Positions 1,603-57,899 of a stretch of 64,000 nucleotides of DNA are shown here, in pieces. The position numbers and the translations under genes were made by a program. The stretch's first letter is position 1. The number at the start of each line of letters is the position of its first letter. The stretch covers positions 14,029,592-14,093,591 of the forward strand of contig OZ024785.1 of assembly GCA_964017065.1 (NCBI GenBank), given 5' to 3'. The notes below the pieces were generated by a model. The model was not told where the DNA came from. It made no database searches and was given only the letters and a program-made list of their open reading frames with translations. This stretch comes from Haliclona indistincta (Eukaryota > Porifera > Demospongiae > Haplosclerida > Chalinidae).

Positions 1603-3045
1603 TTAGGTGTAATAAGAAAAATGACTAGATTTTTGTTCTTGCTGGTCCATAGGCACGCGGGTGGCGCAAATCGATGGCTGTACTCGCGCCAGCATCATGG
1701 CAGCATTCAGATTCGAGAATGGCTTAGGCAACTTGATTGCACACAGCTCAATGCACTTCTTGAGGGCTTCCGTTGTATTTTCAATGTGTGCCATACTTTG
1801 GAAATTCTTCAGTAGCGTCATAGTCTCTATATTGACACGCTTGTGGAGGTTGATGAGCCCATTCTCTGTGAGCTTAATCCCGAGACGTAAGAGCAATGTC
1901 GCCCACAGCCGTTTCTGCTCCTGATCAAACCTGCACTGTGAATGGGGGAAGTGCAACTCTTCAACTTCTTGCATGGCTGCTTCGACATTGAGGCATAGAA
2001 ACGTTACTGGGTAGCAGCATACGGTGGACGAAGCATGTGCAGGGAGTGGCGGCCGTTTTGTGTATGTTGCAATCACAGTCACTTCGGGAACACTGGCCAG
2101 AGCCTGCAATGCTCCCTTGCTGAACATTGCACCCTTATAGGCTTCATCAACATTATCCTCGTTACGGTCACACATTTTGCGATGTTCGTCAAGGTGCAGA
2201 AGGATCCGGAGTCGCTTGCTAGGACCAGCAATCTTTTTCAGGAACTCCGTCAGTTTAGCATGTGTATTTTCAATGTGTGCCATACTTTGGAAATTCTTCA
2301 GTAGCGTCATAGTCTCTATATTGACACGCTTGTGGAGGTTGATGAGCCCATTCTCTGTGAGCTTAATCCCGAGACGTAAGAGCAATGTCGCCCACAGCCG
2401 TTTCAGGAACTCCGTCAGTTTAGCATGCTTGTCAACTGGGACCAAGTGCGGGCCCTGCTTTCCAGGCAACTCAAGAAGGATCTTCAAGCACTCAAAGATA
2501 AACGAGGCACCCTGGCTCTCGGCGTCGTTGGTAATCTTACTGCTCTTAGACACTTGGAAAAAATTAGAGTCATTGTTGCTAAACGCCAAGTAAAGGTAGT
2601 GTGTGAAACCATCCTTCTCATTCTCGGTGCTCTTCAGAAATGCTGGCAGGATGCAAGAGGTTTTACCAGAACTTCCGGGTGCACACAAGTACTTCACTTT
2701 AGCCCGGAGGTGAGTCGGTTTCTCTAGTTGGTATGCCAAGGATTTCATATCGTTTTCAACTGTCCAGTGAGGAAGTTTGTAGAGAGGGACTTGGTCTCCA
2801 GTGGTATCTTCCCGTCTTACAGGCAGAGAACTCTTGTATACTTCAAAGTCTTTAAAGAGTGGTATGTTGTCATTCTGCATGACTTTGTTGAAGTGTACCT
2901 TGAGACGGTCCTCCAGCGAGGAATGAACAGTGCTCGTCCAGCGGGTTCCACAAATCACCCTAGCATGTTTGGGTTGGGAACACCAGAGAACCATGGACAG
3001 CATCCTTGGCGGACGGCAGAGGGTTGAACGAACCAATGGCAGCAT
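1603..3045 (-). CDS. P-loop NTPase, crinkler/RHS-like (tentative)
   Basis: A single open frame of about 480 residues, taking the ATG at 3045 as start; the frame is open slightly upstream but without an ATG. Residues near 120 carry a Walker A-like motif (APGSSGKTS) followed by a YLYLAFSNNDSNF segment. Near 300 there is a Walker B-like LRILLHLDEH and then VTVIATYTKRP, which fits an AAA/STAND-type ATPase core. The layout resembles the NTPase module of eukaryotic crinkler/RHS-type proteins, many of which spread with transposons; this is inference from pattern only. A 47-residue block (from RLWATLLLRLGIK to MAHIENT) is present twice, once in the expected place near the C-terminus and once inserted in the middle, flanked by duplicated HAKLTEFLK. 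The insertion keeps the frame. No partner genes are adjacent. Confidence 0.55.
   Translation of the reverse strand: MLPLVRSTLCRPPRMLSMVLWCSQPKHARVICGTRWTSTVHSSLEDRLKVHFNKVMQNDNIPLFKDFEVYKSSLPVRREDTTGDQVPLYKLPHWTVENDMKSLAYQLEKPTHLRAKVKYLCAPGSSGKTSCILPAFLKSTENEKDGFTHYLYLAFSNNDSNFFQVSKSSKITNDAESQGASFIFECLKILLELPGKQGPHLVPVDKHAKLTEFLKRLWATLLLRLGIKLTENGLINLHKRVNIETMTLLKNFQSMAHIENTHAKLTEFLKKIAGPSKRLRILLHLDEHRKMCDRNEDNVDEAYKGAMFSKGALQALASVPEVTVIATYTKRPPLPAHASSTVCCYPVTFLCLNVEAAMQEVEELHFPHSQCRFDQEQKRLWATLLLRLGIKLTENGLINLHKRVNIETMTLLKNFQSMAHIENTTEALKKCIELCAIKLPKPFSNLNAAMMLARVQPSICATRVPMDQQEQKSSHFSYYT
1774..1915 (-). repeat. 142-bp direct repeat, source copy (partner 2263-2404)
   Basis: Positions 1774-1915 and 2263-2404 are identical over 142 bp. 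The second copy is bracketed by a 27-bp direct duplication (2236-2262 and 2401-2427). The net insertion is 165 bp, a multiple of three. The pattern is that of a templated insertion at a staggered break inside the NTPase gene. Confidence 0.9.
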
Positions 3046-3363
3046 GATGGCAAGAGTTGGTAATAGAAGGGATCTGATATAAACCAAAGCAATTAGTAAT
3101 TTTGCAATATTGTGTGGTCAATTTTGTAAAATTGATTGTAATGCACCAAGTATATTCATGGCTGTGCAAAGAGAAGCCATAAGCAATACATGTACAAATG
3201 TCAGTGCACAGTGTAATGTGTTAACATGCTATTTAGTGGCCATTTGTGACCCACTGGTAACAAAAACCAACAACTCATGCACACATTAATTTTGTTTCAT
3301 TTTTGTAGACTGCACAATTTTTAATTGTGTTTCTTTTTTTAAAGTACAGTACCCGCCAGTATT

Positions 3364-4052
3364 GAGGTGACGGTTACCCGTTTGAGCTAAGTAATATTCA
3401 CAAAATATAAACGTCTGTAGTAGCAAAAGGGAACATGCTAGAGCGCTAAGTAGACCATCATTCGATGCGCCATAGTTAGTAGTTTTCCCAGAAGTAAAAT
3501 AAGTAAGCAGCAAACACAGCGCGCCGTCTGGTAACGAGGAAAACACGAAGCTGTAATCGTATTTTTCCAGCGAAAGTACTTCGTCGATGCTTCTGGATCC
3601 AGTCGAGGGCCAGAGACTGTTAGGCTTGATCGCTGATAAGTATTACCCGAGTTATGGGCGAACTAAGCTGAACTCACCTTGATTTCGTGGCGATCTCGCT
3701 GACACTTCGCTGCATAACTAGCAAACGGTTAGTTTTGTGACAAGCTGTATAGTCTCTGGCCCTGTGCAGGACTTCATACTAACGAAATAACCTGGAAAGA
3801 CAGCCAGTAGATGAGTGCTGTTCGTCAATTCTGACGCAGAAAATGTACTATGGTTGGCAGCTAGTTGGTATCGATTGTGCTAACCGCCGGTCATAAGACC
3901 GCCTATGCATTCCCCTAGCATCCACCCACGTAAAGCGCGCCACTAGTTTACACACTATTCCTTATTTGAATATACCACAAATGATTGCGTAACAATAATT
4001 ATATTCATACACCAATAGTTTTGTGTGGGCACAACTGGTAACCGTCACCTTA
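3364..4052. mobile_element. Possible non-autonomous element with short inverted ends
   Basis: The sequence gaggtgacggttacc at 3364-3378 recurs inverted at 4037-4052 (ggtaaccgtcacctta). The 660 bp between have no coding potential I trust. Short inverted ends around non-coding DNA suggest a MITE, but I could not find a clean target duplication. The surrounding 3100-4540 has no gene that I can support. GC-rich direct repeats (cggcacggc, cagttcttgtcc) lie at 4440-4510. Confidence 0.35.
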
Positions 4053-4547
4053 AGTTCCTGTTCCGAATCACACACGGGACGGAGCATAGCGGAATTATTT
4101 ACGTACAGTCTGCTTCGTTACGACGGAGCAGCTTCTGGTCTTGCTAGTACTAACCGTAGAAAGATGAAGAACCTATGAATGTCCGCATTATGTAGTGCTG
4201 AAGACCCACAAGCTTGCATATTGCTAAGTGAGAAGGAAACCCTGAGCTATGATGCAGCAATGAAGACAACTCAAGGTGACACTTAAAATTATTACAAAGG
4301 AACATATAATTTACATACTTGCACTTGCAGCCAAACATTTAGATCAATACACATCTCTAGGACATCCATACATCAGAAGCTACAACACATCCTCTGATTT
4401 CTCATGGGTACTGTCTATTACTATGTTTACACTGGAGGAGCACGGCACGGCACGGCGCTGCACAGCTCGGCACGGCTCAGTTCTTGTCCAGTTCTTGTCC
4501 GGTTCAGTCCGAAACACTAATTGACGCGCAAAGACGTAATTCTCAGT

Positions 4548-5059
4548 CTACTGTTCTTTTTCACGATTGTTGTTGCAAGGTTTCTTAGCTGGCGGAGGAC
4601 CAAAGAGACTTCGTGGATTGTTGAAAATATCCAGGGCTTCGAAGTAATAGTCTCTTAGGTCCTCCGTCTGGAAACAGCCGTCATCGCGATTACTGTCGTC
4701 CACAAGTGGTTCCAAGGGTCGAATCGGAGATCCGGGAGCATTGGGGTCCCACGTGGGACTCCAATTCTCCCAAGACGAGGGATACTCCTTCATTGGCAGA
4801 GCTATTAAAGAAGAAAGTTACTGGCTAGTTGCTAGTATGCAGCTCACCGTCTCGCTCGAGGCATCGTAAATGCGGCTCATCATTATCTCCACTTGGGTCG
4901 TCGGCATCATCTTTATCAAGTTCACAATCCTCTTCTTCATCATCTGCGTCATCCTCATCCTCAAATAAATCTAAGTTCACTCTGAGCCACTCCACATCAT
5001 CATCATCATCAGCTGCATCAAATCTATCCACATTCTCCCTCAACCACAAAAAATTTCTT
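4548..5059 (-). CDS. Small acidic two-exon gene, function unknown
   Basis: Two minus-strand exons join in frame: 5059-4848 and 4801-4548, through a 46-bp intron with GTGAGC donor and TTTAATAG acceptor. The upstream exon opens after a CTCAAATAG acceptor, so at least one more 5' exon should exist. The protein begins with two related segments (WLRENVDRF and WLRVNLDLF) inside a very acidic stretch of Asp and Glu, and ends with a PSSWENWSPTWDPNAPGSP-type segment and a basic-polar tail. No domain is recognised. The repeated WLR-N-D-F pattern suggests a short duplicated helix. Confidence 0.5.
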
Positions 5060-6570
5060 CTATTTGAGCATAAGTGGATGTATGTTTTAGCACTTAACAG
5101 AAGATAATAGCTAAGATTAGAATAATAATAGCAGTGTTAGATTATCGCTGTGCTTCAGTGAGTTCGCCCTGAACAATGTCTTGACCTGGTGGTGCTTGTA
5201 CCTACCATTACAGTTCAGCATTCGATCAACTATACATCTGTGTGCCTGCACATGATCCACTCTGGTTACAGTTACAGCCTTTAATTACAACCTCGCCTAT
5301 AGTCAATAACGTGTAGATGTACTGTTAATCATGGCAATGTTCATAGTTCGCTACAAAGCAGATAGTAATGACCACATGATACAGCAAATCATCACAATTA
5401 TAGTGGTGGAGCTCAGCAGGGTCTGAATTCTTGACAACAATTGTGCAAACTTAACGTATACCTATCTTCTTGATCAGTTGCTCTAGTGACTCTGCATACG
5501 AATCCGAACAGAGAAACTTTTCGGTGACTTTACAGCATAAAGTATCTTCATGCTGAAAATTTTCAGAGTTTGAAATTCCATTGTGTCTACAGTGCCGGTA
5601 CCGGTATCCAATTTTGTTTCGTTGAGTTTTTTAACCTCACTTTCTCAGGGATAGCCTCACAGCAGATTCCAAATAAAGAAAACTTCCTTGGTGTAAGGAA
5701 GTACACTGGCCCAGCCATAAAAGAGTTATGTCCTCATTATCTTTTACGAAGGTGCACTGCAAGAACATTCGATGCGTGATTCCACCAAAATCAAAAAATA
5801 ATTATTATTGCAAACAAAGTCAAACCAATTGATAGGAATTGTGCTGTGTAGCTTCTTTCCGTCTAACAAGAAAAGGTTGTGAGCATGCTACTGTCCTTGT
5901 TGTATGACAACTTTGTAAACTTAGGAAGGGAAATCAGGGTCTCATTAATGTACTCTTTGATTGCTTATAGCTACACATAGGGCATTCCTTGAGAGACCAG
6001 CAACTCATATTGACACTGGGATCATCTCCTAAAGGCTGAGGTACATCTCCCAAAGACAACTCCACAGATATTATCTTGTCTTCCCCCTACATTGAGTTAT
6101 ATATGTGTACTACACATATATAACCTGAACAGCAGCAGCAACCATGTTACCTTGCAAAATGACTTCATGTTAACTTGCAGTGGCTAGCTGTTTACTACAA
6201 GTGAACAAACCGCACCGATCACCAACGGTTAATATTTTTTTGCAAACTTTTGTGTGATATCACAGCAACAATGCTTCAATAGTATGTCACCGTATAATTG
6301 GTTTTTATCGTTTTCATTGATCGTATCGACGATCTCGTGCACGGAGTCGTACAGAGTGGATTATTCGTTCCCGTCCAGTTCAGCAATGATACCACCTATA
6401 CATACGGTGTCTGAACGGTCTGCCGTTGTTATAATCTATTGTACGGCAAAGTAACGGCATTCGTGTGCTTTGCTTAGCTAGCTTGCTACCATTTATACCA
6501 CGCGTTGCTACGTTACGTTAGTAAACAAGAAGCAGATTATTAGTAATGAAGAAAATAGAAAACTGTCAAC
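5060..6570. other. Intergenic, with a 165-bp repeat and AT-rich DNA
   Basis: No complete gene seen. The only clear structure is the 165-bp block 5950-6114 shared with 49309-49473. A minus-strand low-complexity exon-like frame follows at about 6580-6790, rich in Ser, Asp and Pro-Arg-Glu repeats with an acceptor-like tttccatttcag, but I could not join it to anything. Confidence 0.5.
5950..6114 (-). repeat. 165-bp dispersed coding-like repeat (partner 49309-49473)
   Basis: Nearly identical to 49309-49473. Read on the minus strand both copies stay open and encode a peptide with MSCWSLKECPMCSYKQS, a CxxC-bearing segment. It may be an exon of a dispersed mobile gene family. Confidence 0.8.
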
Positions 6571-28120: not shown

Positions 28121-28795
28121 CTGTGGACAAAAAAACGACGCTTGAGATAAGTACAATGTTACAGCAACAATGTTATGCTGATAATGACCACAGATCTCAT
28201 GCCAGCCAGTTAAACAGGAGGGTGCAAATCTAGTTTCACACCAGTCATGGCACCACATAGCCTTTCTGGCTATGGTGACTGAGTTTCACGCTAGTCACAT
28301 ATTTACATGCATGTGTCAAAAACTCACCAGAAACGGCAAGCACAGTGGGCAGTTTTTGATGGACTAGGAAAGGTGGTCTGAATAGACTAGGACTGAAACA
28401 CGACCAGAAATTGAGCTAAGGGGTGGAAAGGTCAAAATGATTGGGCTATTGTGTTTGCGGATGACATAAACTCACAATAAGTGTCCACTCAACTAGAAGG
28501 AACGTATGTATCGCCAACAGTACGATGGATGGACTTGGATGAACTCGGATCGGATGGGGACAAAATAATACTGAGCTATGAAAGTGAAATCACACGTGCT
28601 AAACCACACCCTCTGATGTTAGTATTAATTATTAATTTTACTTTGCGGTCGTCGAGGCAGGCGGCCTGCGCCGTACTGCTGTACAGTGTAGCCATTATGT
28701 CAGCAGTTGCGGTAAGCAACGCCGGCTCTGTAACTATAGCGTGAGGTTTCTGCTGTAATTCACTGCAAATTACAAGTTTGATTGTCAAAAAATTA
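28121..28795. other. Spacer upstream of the Mutator-like transposase
   Basis: Open frames here lack family matches. Transposon termini could lie here, but I found no inverted partner within the window downstream of 31171. Confidence 0.35.
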
Positions 28796-31171
28796 ATGTT
28801 CTCGTGTACAAGAAAAGACAAGCGTCTTTCTTCAGCAAGAAAGAGACTGATGAGCCAACTGGGAAAAAGGAAAGGAAAGGGTGGGACTTCTTCAGAGGAA
28901 CAGTCTGCAACTCGCGAGCAAAATCAACCGAAAACTGCAGATGCAACAGGCCTAGGAGAACCCATGTCGACGCGGTATGGATATCAAGAATCATCTGAGA
29001 CCGAGGAGGACGATATTAGTACTTCATCACTGACCGGCACAAAGGTAGGTGACTCGCTGCATGATGATGATAGTGGTGATCAAGAGGGTTCTGTACACCC
29101 AAGCAGTGAGTCTGAGTATTTCCCCACACCTGAGAAGCGACGGCGTGTTGCCATTATGCAGCAGCCAGTTGAACCTGTTTCTCTGGGCAAGGGAATGTTT
29201 GTGTGTCTCTCTTCACAGGTGTCAAAATTTTTAGATCAGGTCAATGCTAACATGGCATGCCGTACCCCAGGGTGTAGTGGTATGTATGTTCCAGTCAGAG
29301 TAGTGTGTGAGGGGCTGGGTGGGGGGTTGAAGGTAGAGATTGCTTGTAATGGGTGTAAGATACGTAGATTGACTTTTGACAGTTCCCCTATAGTAGAATC
29401 ATCTCGCCGTACAATAGTCAGCCTCGCTCTACAGGTAGCATTTTATGCTTCAGGATGCACACATGCTCAGTACTATCGCATACTGAAACAGTCACTAGGT
29501 GTTCAGGCTGTCACATGTAAACCATACTGTGAAATGATCAAGCTTGTGTTTCCCCATGTGATTGATATGTTAGGGGAAATGGGCACTGAGGCAATAGATG
29601 ACATGAAAGCATTACCACCTGAAGAAATAGGTAGCATGCAGCGTGCAATAGTAACAGGTGATGGTACATGGCTAACAAGAGGTCACTTCAGTAAGAATCA
29701 CACATACACTATACGTAACTACATGACTGGCGCTCTGTTGTATGTAGTACATGTGTGTATGAGAGGAGAGGATAATTTAGTAGAGGGTGAGTTGTATAAG
29801 GGTACAGCTAAATCAGCTGAAGGGTATGCTGCTGATGAAGCCTTTGGTATGGCAAAGGATGATGGTATGCATGTAGAGGTGCAGTGGCAGGATGCTGACT
29901 CCTCCTCGTCAGCTTCCTTTCGTAAACACTATCCTGATGAAACCAAGTCACATATCATGCTTTGTGCTGGTCATGTCGGTCGTTGCCACACGAAGGCACT
30001 TACCAAACTGTCGCAAAAGAAGAGCTTTACTAAACGATACATAAACAAGCATAAGGAGAGCTTTCCTGAGGTAGGGACAGTGAAATGTTGTTGTGAGGGT
30101 GGTAATCATAGCCAGGGCTGTGGCTGCATGTCAGATGGCTTTTTGCGACAGGCTCGCATCAATTTCTTTTGTTGCCTTGTGCAGTCAGGAAAGGATCCGG
30201 ATGCTTTTGCTAAACGGCTTTGTGACCTAGGTAAGTATCATGCGCGCAATATTCACAGCTGGGAGGGTGGTAGCTGTGATTTTCATTGTGAAAAGAGGTG
30301 TACTTGTGGTAATTGTGAGGAAGACGAGGTAGAGTGTGAAGGTAGGGAGTATGCCACTAAAAACCCACTCACCTGCCCTCTACATGCACTAGCCTATGAG
30401 ATAGAGTGTAATATTAGAGCAGCACGGTCAGATAATGTCATACACCCTGAGCTTGGTAAGGGCCACTCTAATTTGTGCGAGGGATCCCATAATGTGTTGA
30501 TAAGATTTAGATCTAAAGATCTTCACCTCCACCGCCTACATTATATCACATCCACCAATCTGGGACTGTGTCAAAGCAACATGACCTACCTGACAGGTAA
30601 GAAGGGCACAGGATACCACTGGCTGCTGGATCTGTTTGGACGACTCAAGCTACCAATACTGGATGGGATGCAGGAAGCACTGGAGCAGGCAAACAAGAAT
30701 AGGAAGATAAAACTAGGGAAGTTGAGAAGTGAAGAGTCAAAGAAGAAGAGGATCAAGTGGAAGAATGCACGGGACTTGGAACAAGAAGAGAGGAAGCGAT
30801 GGGTTAAGCGACAGGAAATAAGGCATGACTATGGAGAGGGGGATGGTGACGATGACCCTGAAGTTGATGACTCAACAGGTGCTAGGGAACTTCTTGGTAA
30901 CTCCTCAGTGTCTGGGCCCGATAGAGCTGTCATCATTGCTAGTAAAAAGAAGTGTAAGTGTGGGTCTAAAACTCATTTACGAACTAGTCACAGAGAGTGT
31001 CCTATGAATAAGAATAAAGAGCATGGGGATGGCAGTGTAGACTCAATAGGTAACTCTACAAGATCTCAGCAAGATGTTACTACAAAAAAGTGCAAATGTG
31101 GTTCTACTTTTCACCTTCGTACTAGCCATCGAGACTGTCCCATGAATAAAGGTAAGACATCAGGTAAGTAA
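28796..31171 (+). CDS. Mutator-like (MULE-type) transposase, intact frame
   Basis: Taking the ATG at 28796 (MFSCTRKDKR), 791 residues without introns or stops. N-terminal 150 residues are basic then acidic, ending SSESEYFPTPEKRRR. A Cys pair region follows (CRTPGCSGMY, ACNGCKIRR). The catalytic core has VTGDGTWLTRGHFSKNHTY (first D), then VQWQDADSSSSASFRKHYPD (second D), AGHVGRCHTKALTKLS, and SNLCEGSHNVLIRFRSKDLH (candidate E). This agrees with the Mutator-like transposase domain of animal genomes (established family, assigned by motif). Two C-terminal zinc-knuckle-like repeats follow: CKCGSKTHLRTSHRECPMN and CKCGSTFHLRTSHRDCPMN. The transposase would cut and rejoin element ends in the nucleus. 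No frameshift, so it may be active. Confidence 0.8.
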   Translation: MFSCTRKDKRLSSARKRLMSQLGKRKGKGGTSSEEQSATREQNQPKTADATGLGEPMSTRYGYQESSETEEDDISTSSLTGTKVGDSLHDDDSGDQEGSVHPSSESEYFPTPEKRRRVAIMQQPVEPVSLGKGMFVCLSSQVSKFLDQVNANMACRTPGCSGMYVPVRVVCEGLGGGLKVEIACNGCKIRRLTFDSSPIVESSRRTIVSLALQVAFYASGCTHAQYYRILKQSLGVQAVTCKPYCEMIKLVFPHVIDMLGEMGTEAIDDMKALPPEEIGSMQRAIVTGDGTWLTRGHFSKNHTYTIRNYMTGALLYVVHVCMRGEDNLVEGELYKGTAKSAEGYAADEAFGMAKDDGMHVEVQWQDADSSSSASFRKHYPDETKSHIMLCAGHVGRCHTKALTKLSQKKSFTKRYINKHKESFPEVGTVKCCCEGGNHSQGCGCMSDGFLRQARINFFCCLVQSGKDPDAFAKRLCDLGKYHARNIHSWEGGSCDFHCEKRCTCGNCEEDEVECEGREYATKNPLTCPLHALAYEIECNIRAARSDNVIHPELGKGHSNLCEGSHNVLIRFRSKDLHLHRLHYITSTNLGLCQSNMTYLTGKKGTGYHWLLDLFGRLKLPILDGMQEALEQANKNRKIKLGKLRSEESKKKRIKWKNARDLEQEERKRWVKRQEIRHDYGEGDGDDDPEVDDSTGARELLGNSSVSGPDRAVIIASKKKCKCGSKTHLRTSHRECPMNKNKEHGDGSVDSIGNSTRSQQDVTTKKCKCGSTFHLRTSHRDCPMNKGKTSGK

Positions 31172-31702
31172 TTCTTATTTGTATGTGCAACTTACCAGGC
31201 ACTCATGGTAAAAGTTGCATACTGTACACAATAGAACAACCTGTACTGCAAACTATTTTCGTAACTGTTTACAATAAGTTATGTCAGTGTACTCTATTTG
31301 CAGCAGACAACCCTGTATTTAAAAGAGGTATAGTCAAACTATTAGTTGATTACATGTACCTATGTCACTATAGGTCATTCTTACCTAACTGGTATGGTTG
31401 CAGCCTTTTATTATTGAACTGAACTGCTGTAATGAGTTATTAAAATAATTTTTATAGACAAATAACCACAAATAATATTCATATATTTGATCATTATTCA
31501 TTACACTCAGAAGTTGACATGAAGTGTATAGTGAAGTCAATCTTTGTCAACTTGATGGTAGAAATCTTTAGACACAATATATTTGAAATAGTGCATTGCA
31601 CTCAATCAAAAATGCAATGGAAATATTGTGTATGCCATTGTCTATCAGAATTTGTCGTTTATTATTGATAAATAAATGGTCAAAAATAACCTCCTCTCCT
31701 AC
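31172..31702. other. No gene seen
   Basis: AT-rich spacer; terminal repeats of the Mutator-like element were not found. Confidence 0.4.
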
Positions 31703-33830
31703 CTTAATATGACTTGCTACAGCTCTGGAAAGAGGCTTTAAGTCTTTAAAGTACCGTGTCAAAAATCTTGCAACCATCACAATCAAATTTGATCTCATAG
31801 AAGAAATGTCTGTAGCATCTGGAAGAAGAGAAACAGAAGGTAGAGAGGAAATACTTGCTATGCGCCCATGTTGACTTAATGTAGGATCTGTAGTACAGCT
31901 GCTTCCTGCTAGAATGCTGTACAAGTGTAAGAGAGATCTATGATGATCAGACCGCATATCTCGGACAGACCGGTGTTTATCAACGTTGTCTCCCCAAAAC
32001 ATAAAAGGTGTACCAGTAACTAACCACTGTGATAACGGAAGAGTGTGTAAACTAGCGATTTCATCGAGTAATACCAGAGTTGCTGGATAGCTTACACAAA
32101 TTCCCACTTGATTCAAGCGAGAGTATACCTGAATGATTATACAGAAGGTAAAATTAAACTAGAATAGCAATACATTACAAACACATACCTGTTTCTCAAC
32201 ATGTGACTGATACAAGAGCATAGAAATGATCGATTGTACACCGCACATTTCACGATTTCTCTCCTTAAGAAGGATAGCCATACTCATACACAATCCTGGG
32301 TGATGAGCACTTGCCACTTTCAGCTTGTTGCGATGATCGCTGTGACTTACGGTAGTTGATAAAAGGCAAAACAAAGTTGGTGCATGTAGCGACATCTCGT
32401 CAACCAATTAAACGTTGACATGGTCTTAACCAAACTTTTCGGAAAAGTGAAGCATTGTTTCGTCTACATAAAACTGAGCACTCAGAGTCAACAACTCCAG
32501 CAATTAGCTTAATCACGACATCAGCTAACTGTTTGTTCTTAAGAATTGCTTTACCTATACTGAGTAGGTTGCCTCCAGCTACAGCATTTTTAAGTTCAGT
32601 CAATGTGTCACATTGTGATACTGTGCTAGCAGCAGTGGGCTGGTGTGAAGACGCAGAACAAGTACTTTCAGTGAGAGAGTGAGGGTTTGAAGTACCAGTT
32701 GACGATATAGGATGTGTAGTCTCAATCAAAGAGCGAGATGCTATAGCTGATGTAAGACATTAACAAATACAGTGGGAGTATGACCAGCAGCCAAGGAGTC
32801 AAACAATGAAGAGGAAGAGTTACCAATAGCTGAAGTGTTAATCAAGTGGCTAACAGCTGTGGAGTTATAGCTAGCAGCTGACTGATGTAAGGGGTTAGAA
32901 AGAGAATAATCAGAATTAACCAATGAAGAATGAGCAACTGATTGGTTGAAGGAGTTGGTTGAACACTAAGGTATGGTCACTGCATGCATGTGATTCCAAA
33001 TCAACACTTTGTTTCCTTCAAATCAGAACACTACTACTGAGTCCAAAATTCCAAATACCAAATCCAGACTAAAGAGATTTCACTGAATACACCACACAAT
33101 GATACTCATTACCCTATACAAAAGTTGATAGATACCTTTGGTTTTGGAGCAGCTAGTCGTAGATGATGAGGAACTCGAGCTGGAGCTGCCGGCAGCACCG
33201 GAGCCACCGGAGCCTGGGCTACCGGCAGCACCGGAACCTGAGCTACCGGCGCCACCGGAGCCTGGGCTACCGGCAGCACCGGAGCCTGGGCTACCGGCGC
33301 CACCGGAGCCTGGGCTACCGGCAGCACCGGAGCCTGGGCTACCGGCGCCACCGGAGCTAAGGCTACCGGCAGCACCGGAGTCTGGGCTACCGGGACCACT
33401 GGAGCCTGAGTTGACGGTACCGGCAGCACCGGAGCTCCGGCTACCGGCGCCACCGGAGCTTCAGTTGAGGTTACCGGCACCGCCCGAGATTGACTGCTTG
33501 TGGCAACAGACTGCAGCTGGCCAGGCTGTGGCATGCTAGATCCAGAGGGGCCAGCAGATTGACTCCTTAATGCAGCACTAGAGTGCGGTGTACTTGTTAA
33601 CTGAAGAGTTTTACATTAAATTAATAATTATTTAGGAAACTGAAACTAACCAATGATGTCGATGACCCAAGTAAATCCTGTGTCAAATAACAATAGATAA
33701 TCATATCAAGTACTGACATTAATTTTACTCACTGAATTATCCGAACTAGAACTGAAGCAATCGAAGGTTCCTGAATTAGGGAGACACGGTAGTGTCTCCC
33801 TATGTAGGGATGAACGAGAAAACAAGATGG
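31703..33830 (-). pseudogene. Decayed DUF6589-type transposase gene
   Basis: Minus-strand exons parallel the intact gene at 53966-57474. 32128-31703 has WGDNVDKHRSVRDMRSDHHR (the intact copy has GDNVDLRVHVRHQ and DHDHHWFNMYA). 32400-32189 has SMAILLKERNREMCGVQSII and YQSHVEKQ (intact: AAVLLKQRCEGMSALQHII, HGNASKQ). 32680-32400 has LKNAVAGGNLLSIGKAILKN. Between the last two, homologous pieces fall in three different frames, so at least two frameshifts are present. The C-terminal half with GDQLT and the SPRRAH region is missing. Upstream exons at about 33100-33830 encode Ser-rich and VAPVAQAP-type repeats that probably formed its N-terminus. No helicase gene accompanies this copy. Confidence 0.6.
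33109..33534 (-). CDS. Val/Ala/Pro-repeat exon
   Basis: An open minus-strand exon ending in a GTATCTATC donor. It encodes repeated APVAPVAQAPVLPVAQ units and ends HHLRLAAPKPK. The DNA is a GC-rich minisatellite with 30-bp half-units alternating ggctaccggcagcaccgg and ggctaccggcgccaccgg (33184-33480), in strong contrast to the AT-rich flanks. It probably belongs to the decayed transposase gene downstream, as a disordered linker. Confidence 0.5.
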   Translation of the reverse strand: MPQPGQLQSVATSSQSRAVPVTSTEAPVAPVAGAPVLPVPSTQAPVVPVAQTPVLPVALAPVAPVAQAPVLPVAQAPVAPVAQAPVLPVAQAPVAPVAQVPVLPVAQAPVAPVLPAAPARVPHHLRLAAPKPKVSINFCIG

Positions 33831-51063: not shown

Positions 51064-52048
51064 CTATTGGTATCCAGCGTGCTTTATCCAACCTTGGCAT
51101 TGCTGAGGTGTTATTGCAGCAAATGCTGCAGTGAGTACATACTCAATGTCATCTGTTGCTTGCAAAACTGCTTCATTGGCCTTCAGGTAAGCTTTCACAC
51201 TGGAAAAAGCTTCCTCTATAGCATTGAAATCAGGACTATACGGTGCATAAGAAGATCACAAGAGCCCCAATACTTTCTATGAGATCAATGCTGTCAGCAG
51301 CATAGTGAATTGACGCGTTGTCCAGAACAACGATGCTGTGAGGATTTGTCCCGTTAAAAGGCATCAAATGTCTCAGTAAGTTCTCTTCCACAAACACCCT
51401 AAACTCACTTGCATCAACACTACCATGAACAAGTCGGAAATCCAGCATTCCATAGGTAGACATGGCTGATATTGCTGAGACTCGTCTCCCTCTGATCAGT
51501 AACCTGTGAGACTTCGTACGCTTTCCCCTTAAGCTGTATCCAAACTTTCTCATGGAGTCTCTGCGATCACTACCAGTCTCATCAAGAAAAACAATCATAT
51601 CTGCAGCGTACTGTTGCATCTCGTTCATATATCTGGCTCTGCACACTTCACTCTGTTGTATAGCAACAAGTTGAATCTTTGTGCGTGTAAACCCGGCCTT
51701 CTTCAGGAATCTACATACGGTGGCTTCACTTACTTCGGTCCCTGTAAACTGACTAAGTTGTCGGCATATTTCAAGTAGATATATTCCTGGCTGTTCTAGA
51801 ACTAACTCCATTATCATCCATTCGTCATATGAGGTCAGTCGAGTAGGAGGATGGCTTGACCCATACCCTCGCCCGTCAACATTGCCCGTCGTGTCAAACA
51901 GCCTCACCATCCGACGCACAGTGGAATGGCTCACTCCAAGGTTAGCACTAACTCTACCAAGATTGTACTGTAAAACTTTAACTTGATATACCATTCTCCA
52001 GCGAAGATCGCCATCGTACGCTTTGGTTCTTCTTGGTTCATACGACAT
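51064..52048 (-). pseudogene. IS630/Tc1-mariner-type (DDE_3) transposase, frameshifted
   Basis: From ATG at 52048 the frame has a helix-turn-helix (VSANLGVSHSTVRRMVRLF), then FLDETGSDRRDSMRKFGYSL (first D), SIVVLDNASIHYA (second D) and GALVIFL. A one-base shift near 51243 moves the rest to another frame: YAPYSPDFNAIEEAFSSVKA (E) to a TAG at 51064-51066. All three catalytic acids are therefore present but split by the shift. The gene would cut at TA targets. Terminal repeats were not recognised. The 5.55-kb transposon inserted 93 bp upstream of its start codon. Confidence 0.85.
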
Positions 52049-52141
52049 GGTGACCACAGCGCACTGCGGCGCGAATACAGCCGCTATTGCGGCGCTGACC
52101 GGTTTGGCGCTTATCACTTGGTAATTTTTCAAAGTGTATGC

Positions 52142-52219
52142 TAGTCTGGCCGCTGCCCCTCCCCGCCTATTGAGTGGGTGGTGGACGGCGTGTAGGGTCT
52201 AGCAAACATTGCCATTCAT
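52142..52219 (+). repeat. Left 78-bp terminal inverted repeat
   Basis: Perfect inverted match to 57614-57691. GC-rich compared with the interior. Confidence 0.97.
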
Positions 52220-52245
52220 AGTTTCCCAACCGACCAATCAGATTC

Positions 52246-52269
52246 TACTGCTCAAGATCTTGAGCAGTA
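52246..52269. promoter_or_regulatory. 24-bp perfect palindrome near the left end
   Basis: tactgctcaaga followed by its exact complement, 27 bp inside the left inverted repeat and about 50 bp upstream of the helicase ATG. There is no equivalent at the right end. It could be a transposase or repressor site; this is inference. Confidence 0.6.
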
Positions 52270-52318
52270 ATATTCATGGCTCATGGGCTGGGTTTGATCG
52301 TGAATAATATTACAGGCT

Positions 52319-53950
52319 ATGGCAGAACAGGCTGAACAGTTCGGTTGGGTGAATGCCGTGAAAGCTAACAGTCGTGCTGTTGACGATGCGATCAAAGATA
52401 GCCTACCGCGCTTCAAGCATAAATCGCTAAAACCAGCGCAGTGTGAGGCAATTCGTGCGGTACTGTCTGGCAAGGACGCGTTTGTTTCAGTGCCTACTGG
52501 ATATGGGAAGTCTTTGATATATCACATACTTCCATTCTGTGCTGCTAAGCTGATGGAGGGTACTTCAGTTATCCCGTGTGTGTTAGTCTTAAGCCCACTC
52601 ACAGCACTAATGTATGATCAAAACAGAAAGTTGAATACTGACGTTGTTGGAGCCAAATCTGTCCTACTGGCTAAAGATCAACTCGACAAAAGTGCTGTAG
52701 TTGGCATGACCCACATCTTTGCCAGTCCTGAGGCTTTGTTGGATACAGAGAAAGGGCGGTCACTATTACTCAATGAATGCTTTGCACAAAGTTTAGTAGC
52801 TGTGGCTATTGATGAGGCGCATTGCATTGTCAAATGGTAATTACATGCCACCTCGTAGTGTGTAAAGTCACTTGATGTGCCTATATGTGTAAGACATTAT
52901 ATTACACTAGCAGATTTGGGCCACGAATATCGTTTGATCATGTGCACATCATGTTACTTTACACAATTTTTGCATGGGTATACCAGGTGGTTATTAAAAA
53001 TTATGTTCACGTTATTTCTTTTATAGGGGCATAGACTCATCATTTAGAGAATGGTACGGGAAAGTCGTACAGATCAAAGCATTCATCCCTAACTCTACTC
53101 CAGTATTAGCACTAACTGCTACAGCAACCAAGAGAACCTGTGCGACCATCATTAAGCATATGAAAATGATCTCACCTTGTATTGTCTACATCTCACCCGA
53201 CCGTCCTAACATAAGGTATTCTGTTGTTAGAACTAGCAGAGACTGTACACAAGCTTTTCAATGGCTACTTCATGATCTTCAGCAAAATGGCAGAGAAACA
53301 AAGCGTGTACTAGTGTACTGCCAATCGATTCAGACATGTGCTCAATTGTACAAGTTATTTCTCACCACTTTACAAGAACGCAGTTACGCTAATCCATCTT
53401 TACCTTTTGAGATTTCGAACCGCCTTTTCGCTATGTTTCATTCAAGGGTAGATAAAAAGGATAAAGAAATGATACTGGATTGTATGAAAGACCCTAATAG
53501 TGCTTGTCGAGTTGTATTTTGTACAGTGGCTTTCGGAATGGGTGTAGACATCGCAAACATTCGCACAATTATTCATTATGGACCTCCCTCTGATGTTGAT
53601 GATTATGTGCAAGAAACGGGTAGAGGAGGAAGAGACGGGTTAGAGTGTAATGCATGTCTGTACTTGCATTCAGGCTGTAGTGGAAAAGTATAGTCCGTAG
53701 TCTAAATGGAGATCAGTTATCTGAGTTGCGAGCAAAACTTTTTGAATTTAGAAATACCTTACTCCATCGTTCTGTTGGAATAAACTTACTTGTTGGGTCA
53801 GATATTGCTAGTGGTCTTCCAGTGAGTGTGATTGATAGTGTTATTGAAAACGTACAATTTATTGATGGCCCTGCTGATCTTGATCGTATGTGTCATGTGT
53901 GGAATTACTCTGATGAAATATTTGATATAATTTTTGACATTTGTGATTAA
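52319..53950 (+). CDS. RecQ-like SF2 helicase of the transposon
   Basis: Exon 1 (52319-52836) and exon 2 (53027-53693) join in phase across a 190-bp intron. Motifs in order: KSLKPAQCEAIRAVLSGKD (motif 0/Q), PTGYGKSLIYHILP (I), VLVLSPLTALMYDQ (Ia), AIDEAHCIVKWG (II, DEAH), LALTATATKRT (III), RVLVYCQSIQTC (IV), VVFCTVAFGMGVDI (V) and YVQETGRGGRDG (VI). This is a RecQ-family set, which unwinds DNA 3'-5' in known members. The frame stops at 53693, but a neighbouring frame stays open to 53950 (SIVRSLNGDQLSELRAKLFE onward), suggesting a one-base shift or unseen intron near 53685. No RecQ zinc-binding or HRDC domain is evident. It probably assists transposition. Confidence 0.85.
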
Positions 53951-53965
53951 TACAGTTTTTCTACA

Positions 53966-56900
53966 TTAAAATATACTTTTGTCAAGAGCTTGTTGAATAG
54001 CAGCAGATTTTTGGTGCTGTCGAATCCATTTATAAAAGTCGTCCAATTTTGACTTAAGTTTAAACAGTGGATCAGCATGTACGGCTTTGATTGATGAATG
54101 CTTCCTTCCTGAATGGTAGGAGAATACACTAGCTGCTCGTAGAGTCTTTAGAACTAATTTGAAATCATTTGATAGATCTGGTTGGCTGTGACGCCCGCTG
54201 TCAGTATATAAACTAGTAACGTGATCAAAACGGTCCAAAATATCCTGAACAGGGCGCAATGACTGAGAGCTGCGTTGTACACTATGTTCTGAGATATGAG
54301 AATGAAATGTGTTTAAATCTGCCTTGAAAATAGCATTTAAATACTCATTCTTTAGGTCAAGTGGGACATTTTCCCCTCTTCCTCCCTTTGAGTTGCAGGT
54401 ACGATTCCATATCAATTGATGAGCTCGTCTGGGTGAGAGCATTGCTACAATCTGTGCACCCAAGCGAAAAGCCTCTAGTGCGTACTTTGTTCTGCCATCA
54501 TCTTTAAAGTACAGCAAGAAAAATTTCCACATTCTAACTGTTCTTGCACCATCACCTTCTTTCCAAGCATCACGGAAGTTTTTTGCCAAAAGCCCATACC
54601 CTATTACGCGAGAAGCATAATTACGCACTTGATCTTGTGCTTCTGGGTCTTCGGTCCGTGGTGGGTATTGAGTTCCAACGCTTGCCTGTCCCTGTCCCAA
54701 CACTTGTTCTTGTACATCAGTCTCAACGAACTTCATCACGTATTTGTTAACCAACTTCCCAACTATATTCATGAGATCCGTTTCAGTAGGAACTGATTGT
54801 TGTGCTTCTTGGATCAACTGAGGGACATCAGAGATGTCGTCCATTTTGAAATGTTCCATGGTAGCCGCAATAATATGAGCCTCATACACAAGATTCATGA
54901 AATCTTCAACTGCGTTCATGTCATTCTTGACTTTGGTAGTAGGCAAACAAGTTCTTCGAAGAATAGTCTGCAAGTGGGCAAGTGTACCCTTGTCTGCAAT
55001 TGAGTCTTTGCTATACAACTTGTTCCAAATAACCTGCAAATTAAATAACAATTTTATGCTGGACCCGGTATAATTATAGCAAAACTTGCAAACCTGATAG
55101 AACGTCATCCATGCATGCCAATCCTCAACAACGGGTATTAACCCTTTCAACTTTTCATGCTGTTCAGTAGACTGCAACTTTGCATCCTGGGCACCAGTTG
55201 CACGTTCCTTTGTGAGCTGATCTCCTCCAAAGATGATAGGATAGAACTTGCCCGCTGCATTTTTGGGGACATACTTGTGAAGATGAGCCATGATGTCGAC
55301 CATATCTTCACCACTTTGCTCTCTTTTCATTAATACACCTAGTGGCACCTGAAAAACATAACTCACATATCTACATTCTTGTGAGCCAATAATTAACTTA
55401 CAACTTCGGATTTGGACTTCATTGCACCTATGTGTTGATGATTGATGTGATCTGGTACTACTGTTTGCAAAAACCTGAAACATGGAAGGTGCTTAATTAG
55501 CACACGAGCAAACAGAATCGTGAATTCTTTGTGAACGCTAACGCAGTCGTCCACATTGGGAAGAAAAGATGAAAGAGGAAGTTTCTGCACATTAGCTTGA
55601 GGCCCCTGATCAGGTAGATGTAGTCCAAAAATACGATCCTTAATCGCATACATGTTGAACCAGTGATGGTCATGATCCATATGAGAGAGAGTTTGGTGTC
55701 GCACATGAACGCGAAGATCAACATTGTCTCCAATTAGACGATATGTTGGCAAACCTGGGTGAAAGACTATGATTGCATACTTTTATGCGCAATAATCATC
55801 ATTCTTACATGTACCATCCTGCTCATCATTCAAGTCAAAACCAGCTTGAAGAACTTCTGGCCTCACTGATGTGTATTATTTACAGAATTATATAGTAATG
55901 AGCACTGTTCATGCACAAGCAAATTAACCTTTAAGCTTGTTCTCGATTGATTTCTTCCAGTCCATGACAAGAACATCATGACCTTTGCCCAATTGATCCA
56001 TTTTTGTAAGAGTGGCAGTTTGTGATACACAAATTTGCATCTGAGAGAGACGCCTCTGGGTCTAAGATAATAGTTAAGATCAAATTAGTAATTTTTAATT
56101 AATAAAATTATGAATACCTGCTTACTGGCATTGCCATGAAAAAGCATAGTGCCAATAATGTGCTGTAATGCGCTCATACCCTCACACCGCTGCTTTAACA
56201 GGACAGCAGCAGCAGTACACACAGCTGGATACAGACATTCAGTTGTTATACCTTTGTGGCGATTTCTTGAACGACGCTTAGGTGCAGCTACTGTAGTAAG
56301 AAATGAAAGAAAATTAGGAGCTTTCTGTTGAAGTTCACCAGCGACATCATTCCAATCAAACTTTGTCAGATCTTCTGGAGATGAGAGGCGGAGCTTGGTT
56401 TTGCTTAGTGTTGAACAGAGAACCTCACACTCTGCTTTGATCTTCTTCAGTAAGGCATCCGTAACTAGCCTACACAAATCTTTATTGGCTACCACAGCTC
56501 GAGCTACTGAAAGCCAATTCCCTTTACAAAGTGCCAACCCAACTGGTGCTAGTTCCTTCGAGAGCGTGCGTTCAAGTGGGTTTTCTTGAAGGACTATTAC
56601 CTGAAATTAATAATTATAACTTAATAAAACCATTTTTATACTGTATAGCGGGTAATTTTGGCAGGAGGACACTTTGCCGAATTTGGCGAATCGTCAAGCA
56701 TTCGTCAAAACCTGCAATTTTATTTCAGTAATGCGTGAGCCAGGCACTTGAACCAATTTTTTTCAATTTGCCATTATGCAAAATCTAGGTCATTTGCCAA
56801 TATTTTTACCCTCCTGCTATACGGTAGTTAATTACATCTATTACTATACATACCTTTACGGTAACATCATTGCATGAAGTCGGCTGTGCATGTGCCTGTA

Positions 56901-57474
56901 GATGTTGCTGTTGTGATGAAGCCTGTTGCTGTTGAAGTACTTGAACTTGTAGAGGAAGAAGAGGGAGAAGTGATCGCTGATGATGTGCTGGACTAATGTC
57001 GGTTTCTGACGCAAATAAATGTACATGTAATGGATCAGGAAGGTCTTCTGCAGGTGGTTGAGTTGATGGCAAAAGAACACCTGTGGATGGTACTGCCTGC
57101 ATGGGAAAGAGTTCTTTTCTGGTGGCAGGAGTTTGTGTAATTGGGCTGCGTCGCTTCTTTGCCGCTGGTGAAATCCCAGTGCTAAGCTGTGATGGTGATC
57201 TCGAGCGTACTTGACTGTGTCTTTCACCATAGATGCTTCCACTGACAGTAATTATTTTCTCTTTAAAGCTTTCTTTCAACTCATTGAATTCTGTGGAAAG
57301 CTTCTGGATACGATGGATCGATCTCTTACAGCTCTGGCATGCACATGATATATATTCAGTACAGCGTTCCATTTCTATAATGCTTTCCAGTATACTCCCC
57401 AATTCAGTCGGTTTTCCACGTCCATCAGCGAGTTTGTACCTCTTCTCAGTGCTTTCTCCACAAATATCACACAT
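53966..57474 (-). CDS. DUF6589-type transposase, seven exons, 987 aa
   Basis: Exons 57474-56854, 56600-56118, 56061-55929, 55865-55815, 55754-55402, 55348-55094 and 55033-53966 join with all phases consistent, giving 987 residues. The N-terminus has a Cys-rich finger (MCDICGE, CACQSCKRSIHRI) and Gln/Ser-rich linker. The second exon has LCKGNWLSVARAVVANKDL and GMSALQHIIGTMLFHGNASK. Candidate catalytic acids: GDNVDLRVHVRHQ (D), IIFGGDQLTKERATGAQ (D), and a later Glu near TKYALEAFRLGAQIV or the SPRRAHQLIWNRTCNSKGGR region. These motifs match the DUF6589 family (assigned by memory of the pattern). The introns are short (49-63 bp) except the first, which holds a MITE. Confidence 0.85.
56639..56826. 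mobile_element. 188-bp MITE nested in the transposase intron
   Basis: Ends tactgtatagcgggtaatttt and, inverted, taccgtatagcaggagggta, with TA at each edge. It lies wholly inside intron 1 of the transposase, so it need not harm the gene. Its ends resemble those of the MITE at 26849-27037 (shared GGTAATTTT). Confidence 0.75.
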
Positions 57475-57613
57475 TGCTTTGCCTCTATGCCTCTATCCTT
57501 CTTACACAAGCAACTGCAGTCCAGGCGCACTCACCATATGACGTTGAGGAATCCCCGCTCATCATTGCAATATAATTAATTCAAATACGCGATTAATTAT
57601 TCATAAAAAGTCG

Positions 57614-57691
57614 ATGAATGGCAATGTTTGCTAGACCCTACACGCCGTCCACCACCCACTCAATAGGCGGGGAGGGGCAGCGGCCAGACTA
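57614..57691 (-). repeat. Right 78-bp terminal inverted repeat
   Basis: Perfect inverted match to 52142-52219; target duplication agtgtatgc follows at 57692-57700. Confidence 0.97.
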
Positions 57692-57899
57692 AGTGTATGC
57701 AAACTGGGGTAGTGGTTGCAGCTATACAATCAGAAGCCTAGCAGTACTGACCACAAGGAATTCATCTGGGCTGCCTATAATCAAAGCAGTCCATATATGG
57801 CAAGCCAAACCATCCCTTGTTTACATGGCCATACTGTAACGGCCTGCCCTTTCTATTTACATTACCACAGGAGTGGCCTTACAAGGTGTACACTGCCTT

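Follow-up and report, generated by a model that had tools for sequence, protein, structure and literature searches.

Helitrons are helicase-bearing DNA transposons of eukaryotes and in this respect resemble the element described here; to our knowledge they have no terminal inverted repeats, produce no target duplication and encode a Rep/Pif1-type protein, whereas our element has inverted repeats, a target duplication and a RecQ-type helicase. Elements of the Kolobok superfamily duplicate TTAA at their targets. Helicases are found in more than one superfamily: the relevant passages of PMC9587614 describe KolobokH, reported there only from fungi, as a DDE transposon encoding a RecQ helicase, which in Kolobok-1_CCri lies on the complementary strand. 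Closest to our locus is the superfamily Academ, for which the corresponding section of PMC10045372, citing Kojima 2020, gives duplications of 9 or 10 bp in AcademH and of 3 or 4 bp in AcademX and relates these lengths to the AcademH helicase and the AcademX nuclease, both groups being placed in Academ. Helicase domains are likewise named for AcademH in the part of PMC10799480 that cites Kojima 2020, the title of which (Mob DNA 11:15), as it appears in PMC10799480 and PMC10045372, names animals and fungi.

The 64-kb window (the whole stretch of DNA analysed here) contains a transposon of 5,550 bp (52142-57691), delimited by inverted ends and a flanking duplication. Its left terminal inverted repeat (52142-52219, plus strand), which starts with TAGTCTGGCC, is complementary to the right one (57614-57691, minus strand) at 78 of 78 nucleotides (100%), and the 9 bp adjoining the left end (agtgtatgc, 52133-52141) are matched exactly by those adjoining the right end (57692-57700). 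The element is the sole return of a scan of the window that required exact 9- or 10-bp flanking repeats around the pattern TAGYCTNG...CNAGRCTA (five left and nine right ends, with spacing of 150-12,000 bp). When the two flanks are joined they restore the end of a mariner-like element and match genomic copies of that terminus. Nine of ten retrieved mariner-like paralogues are uninterrupted there and contain the 9 bp just once (with one substitution inside it in L087), while no empty site was seen in the tenth, L085, the match of which stopped short of the junction. The 9 bp are therefore a true duplication, and the transposon sits in an older mariner-like copy, about 10 bp from its tip; the adjoining open reading frame (51236-52132) matches DDE_3 (6.1e-14), consistent with this context. 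The original prediction of a fully delimited transposon with perfect 78-bp ends and an exact 9-bp target duplication is thus confirmed by the ends, the duplication and the empty sites alike.

On the minus strand the element carries a transposase gene in which a profile search of the window proteins detects DUF6589 (E 3e-38); a literature search for DUF6589 found no paper. Our model of the gene has seven exons, the boundaries of which are predicted, with GT-AG introns, no internal stop and a product of 989 residues. Exon 1 (56854-57474) encodes an N-terminal C4 zinc finger resembling zf-AD, a match that is weak in the window (E 0.0015, below the curated cut-off) and clear in the relative L049 (5.4e-9). 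Exons 2 (56118-56600), 3 (55929-56061) and 4 (55809-55865) are open and bounded by GT-AG, and the putative catalytic residues follow in exon 5 (55402-55754; D441 in GDNVD, codon 55728-55726), exon 6 (55094-55348; D592 in GGDQLTKER, codon 55222-55220) and exon 7 (53966-55033; E864, codon 54346-54344). When relatives taken from records of sea urchin, sponge and oyster are aligned with it together with L049 and L050, DN[VI]D, GD.LT and a downstream glutamate prove to be conserved, corresponding to D441, D592 and E864. Both aspartate columns are D in all eight sequences of one alignment; in the larger alignment A1 they have letters in seven and eight rows, all D, since most A1 rows are C-terminal pieces, and 41 of the 43 rows without a gap at E864 have a glutamate there. 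Judging from this conservation, the three residues probably form a DDE catalytic triad.

The helicase gene runs convergently, on the plus strand. Exon 1 (52319-52836) contains the Walker A motif TGYGKS and the DEAH box and belongs to the RecQ family by PDB search, and exon 2 (53027-53693) contains Helicase_C; the profile search detected DEAD at 5e-15 and Helicase_C at 1.3e-17. A PDB sequence search returned 1oyw (1.3e-38), which we take to be E. coli RecQ, and RecQ 4tmu (2.1e-38), followed by BLM and WRN, and since RecQ, BLM, WRN and RECQ1 entries are the highest-ranked matches, a RecQ-type helicase core is present. The assignment of a RecQ-like SF2 helicase and a DUF6589 transposase to convergent genes, made originally from the letters alone, is therefore borne out by domain and PDB searches. 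The window helicase is, however, damaged. Its open frame ends early, at a TAG (53691-53693), giving a two-exon product of 394 residues, and a remnant of the C-terminal tail follows in another frame (53699-53950, plus strand), recognised by comparison with L042, P0006, P0008 and P0021. The proteins P0006, P0008 and P0021 run on through a CRR...CCDxC zinc-binding part into a tail that matches this out-of-frame remnant, and by alignment with P0006 some 75 codons are gone from the window copy, among them those of the RecQ zinc-binding part, together with the reading frame. The profile search did not detect the zinc-binding subdomain PF16124 in the window copy, while it is present in the relatives L049 (9.4e-7) and L050 (2e-10) and, by precomputed Pfam, in P0007, P0008, P0010 and P0021; since relatives keep that part, its absence is damage to this copy. 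The element was called complete, which is true of its ends and not of its genes, as the helicase is internally deleted and frame-broken, and the copy is today at most transposase-competent. A close relative exists elsewhere: P0006, a helicase of 335 aa, is 85% identical to that of the window over 45% of the query and keeps the zinc-binding part, and its longest contig, of 5,608 bases, is about the size of the whole element.

The ends are abundant in the genome. The 33-bp terminus, searched with up to two mismatches in 144 Mb (46 contigs), occurs 95 times in forward and 89 times in reverse orientation, 184 in total, and the reversed control pattern gave no match in the same search. Among the 100 ends that were listed, 64 pair into 32 elements including that of the window and 36 are unpaired. 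The sequences of all 31 other paired copies (L009-L039) were retrieved and compared. Collected in this way by their shared end, the copies repeat the boundaries exactly, so that the transposon stands as delimited, and 24 have an exact duplication, of 9 bp in 16 and of 10 bp in 8. Three more have near-exact duplications with one mismatch each (two of 9 bp, one of 10 bp), bringing the count to 27 of 31, and no duplication was found at the remaining four (L012, L023, L024, L028). When the flanks of the 31 copies were mispaired as a control, exact 9-10 bp matches appeared in 2 of 930 pairings, which we attribute to L010 and L032 because the flanks of these two share the duplicated stretch. L010 and L032 were inserted at one point, facing opposite ways, next to a similar left flank; the duplication measures 10 bp in one of them and 9 bp in the other, and their right flanks diverge a few bases past it.

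Most of these copies (25 of 31) are short, non-autonomous elements of about 450 bp (434-465 bp), on average 97.8% identical to their own consensus. The window ends agree with this consensus at 93.0% overall, the two terminal stretches of 80 columns at 100% and 98.7% and the interior at 89.7%. L009, for example, retains 322 bases from the left and 154 from the right of the element at about 89% identity. By their sequence the short copies seem to derive from a sister element through internal deletion, and they would presumably have moved in trans. The matching repeats had also been read as a sign of recent insertion, a reading that finds no support. Insertion does not generate the inverted ends of a DNA transposon afresh as identical copies, and in this family the ends are conserved far beyond the interior, so that their identity says little about age; dating of the insertion by end identity was dropped for this reason. 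Among the scored matches only the window copy has the coding interior at 100%, the next-best reaching 45% for the helicase (57% over a piece) and, in the last exon of the transposase, 65%.

The gene pair itself is widespread. It had been considered rare for a cut-and-paste transposon to carry a helicase, but at least 53 convergent helicase/transposase pairs exist in this same genome. Of 96 transposase and 131 helicase matches the best 63 and 86, respectively, entered the comparison, the weaker and fragmentary ones of both sets being left out: a helicase match lies within 6 kb of 53 of the 63 transposase matches, all 53 in convergent orientation, against a chance expectation of 0.45. Within the compared sets at most 10 of 63 transposase and at most 33 of 86 helicase matches have no partner within 6 kb, and these figures are upper limits because weak matches that were left out adjoin some of the unpaired ones (C6:12127082 is next to C6:12128434, C8:1689477 next to C8:1687855). 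The linkage of the two genes thus holds at 53 of 63 loci; the outcome that had been named as counting against it, each gene standing apart from the other, also turned up in part, in these solo matches. Distances between helicases and between transposases at eight loci are strongly correlated (Mantel r 0.79, p 0.0002), therefore the two genes have diversified together.

Related ends, starting with TAGCCTCG, TAGTCTCG or TAGTCTAG, are found in other families that contain both genes. Among the seven loci with both genes that were tested first, five have duplications of 9 bp (L042, L049 and L052) or 10 bp (L050 and L051), while no ends were found at L041 and no duplication at L053. In the family of L049 both ends are at the expected place in 7 of 11 copies, four of these with 9 bp and three with 10 bp, so single families mix the two lengths. 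Two of the 33 loci with solo helicases were checked. L089 (514-2826), 2,313 bp long, is a derivative that keeps the helicase and has no transposase match; its ends are of the AcademH type, the same as those of L052, and its flanking repeat measures 8 bp. L088 has a closely similar helicase, with no ends found in the 7 kb examined. After this check solo helicases were dropped as proof that the genes are independent. Four of the ten transposases lacking a helicase partner were also checked: a degraded convergent helicase is present at L091, and none was detected beside the transposase at L040, L092 and L093. The window itself holds a second, truncated transposase fragment on the minus strand (31661-32585), 43% identical to the L050 transposase and with no helicase match or ends detected near it, and a 797-aa open frame on the plus strand (28778-31171) for which Pfam gave no match at E 0.01.

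Taken together, these features make it very probable that the element belongs, as a DNA transposon of autonomous type, to the AcademH lineage of the superfamily Academ, a placement made from the printed description (duplication length and helicase). As in AcademH, a helicase lies beside the transposase, here a putative DDE enzyme, with the helicase C-terminus broken in the window copy, and the duplications are of 9 or 10 bp, in the window and in the copies; we found no defining difference, the missing zinc-binding part being copy damage. Duplications of 3 or 4 bp, which go with a nuclease in AcademX (PMC10045372), flank neither the element nor its copies. The original prediction took 3-4 bp as the length in Academ and considered a distinct lineage on account of the 9 bp; the shorter lengths belong to AcademX, and since a helicase with 9/10-bp duplications is the published description of AcademH as far as the cited section of PMC10045372 gives it, no distinct lineage is indicated and the proposal of a new one was dropped. 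Several observations count against the AcademH placement: the four copies lacking a duplication, the 8 bp of L089, the partnerless matches, and a predicted transposase fold (AlphaFold model of P0003, mean pLDDT 65.3) that gave no clear match in fold comparison.

The strongest rival is a distinct, non-Academ superfamily that gained a RecQ helicase independently and happens to make 9-10 bp duplications. The existence of helicases in more than one superfamily, with a RecQ helicase also in KolobokH (PMC9587614), makes this conceivable, and the named Academ transposases are compared here by description only, yet duplication length and helicase, the only testable features in the descriptions available to us, both fit AcademH, and we regard such a superfamily as improbable. 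Still less credible is a chance or domesticated gene pair within a repeat that is no mobile unit: the broken helicase would agree with it, as would the coding interior, which among the scored matches reaches 100% in this copy only, but the ends, the duplication, the empty sites, the 184 ends genome-wide and the convergent pairs, present in many families of which one counts 11 copies scoring equally for the transposase, speak strongly against it. A KolobokH-type element, in which the RecQ helicase (on the complementary strand in Kolobok-1_CCri, as here) would accompany a Kolobok transposase, can practically be set aside, as 24 of 31 copies have exact 9/10-bp duplications of varied sequence and a TTAA duplication is seen neither at the element nor at its copies.

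For the AcademH element we propose the following mechanism. The DUF6589 transposase would recognise the 78-bp TAGTCTGG ends, its N-terminal zinc finger being, from its sequence, the likely end-binder, would excise the element by cut and paste with the putative triad D441, D592 and E864, and would join it to the two strands of the target at points 9 or 10 bp apart; host repair of such a stagger would therefore leave a duplication of 9 or 10 bp. The RecQ-family helicase, encoded on the opposite strand, would be an accessory that probably unwinds DNA at the cut ends or at gapped joints in the course of excision, insertion or repair; this is the least certain step. A role of the helicase in transposition is not reported as shown in the pertinent parts of PMC10045372, PMC10799480 and PMC9587614. 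The locus is informative in this respect: a helicase-bearing transposon family is classified by features that can be tested here, 9 and 10 bp are mixed within single families, the 9 bp of the window being backed by empty sites, the helicase diversifies together with the transposase, and the genome, with its many families and, in several of them, matches free of stops in both genes, lends itself well to tests of the part that the RecQ helicase plays in transposition.

L040 (C7:4852000-4861900) has an intact seven-exon transposase model of about 914 codons (gene about 2628-6030); neither a helicase nor inverted ends were detected in the 9.9 kb examined there. It is a candidate for a domesticated AcademH transposase or for a copy that lost its ends. 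A single transposase system whose stagger is sometimes 9 and sometimes 10 bp, also where the target position is the same (L010/L032), in which the helicase sets the strand opening at the joint and from which L040 was domesticated, is a combination that we consider unlikely as a whole. The L040 protein is 65% identical to that of the window over the last exon and keeps GDNVD, GGDQLT and NEFLN. As for the targets, the duplicated bases at 25 sites (the 24 exact copies and the window) have a GC content of 61.6% compared with 45.6% in the flanks, and show a symmetric G...C end preference, with G first in 21 of 34 cases when the 17 nine-base sites are symmetrised.
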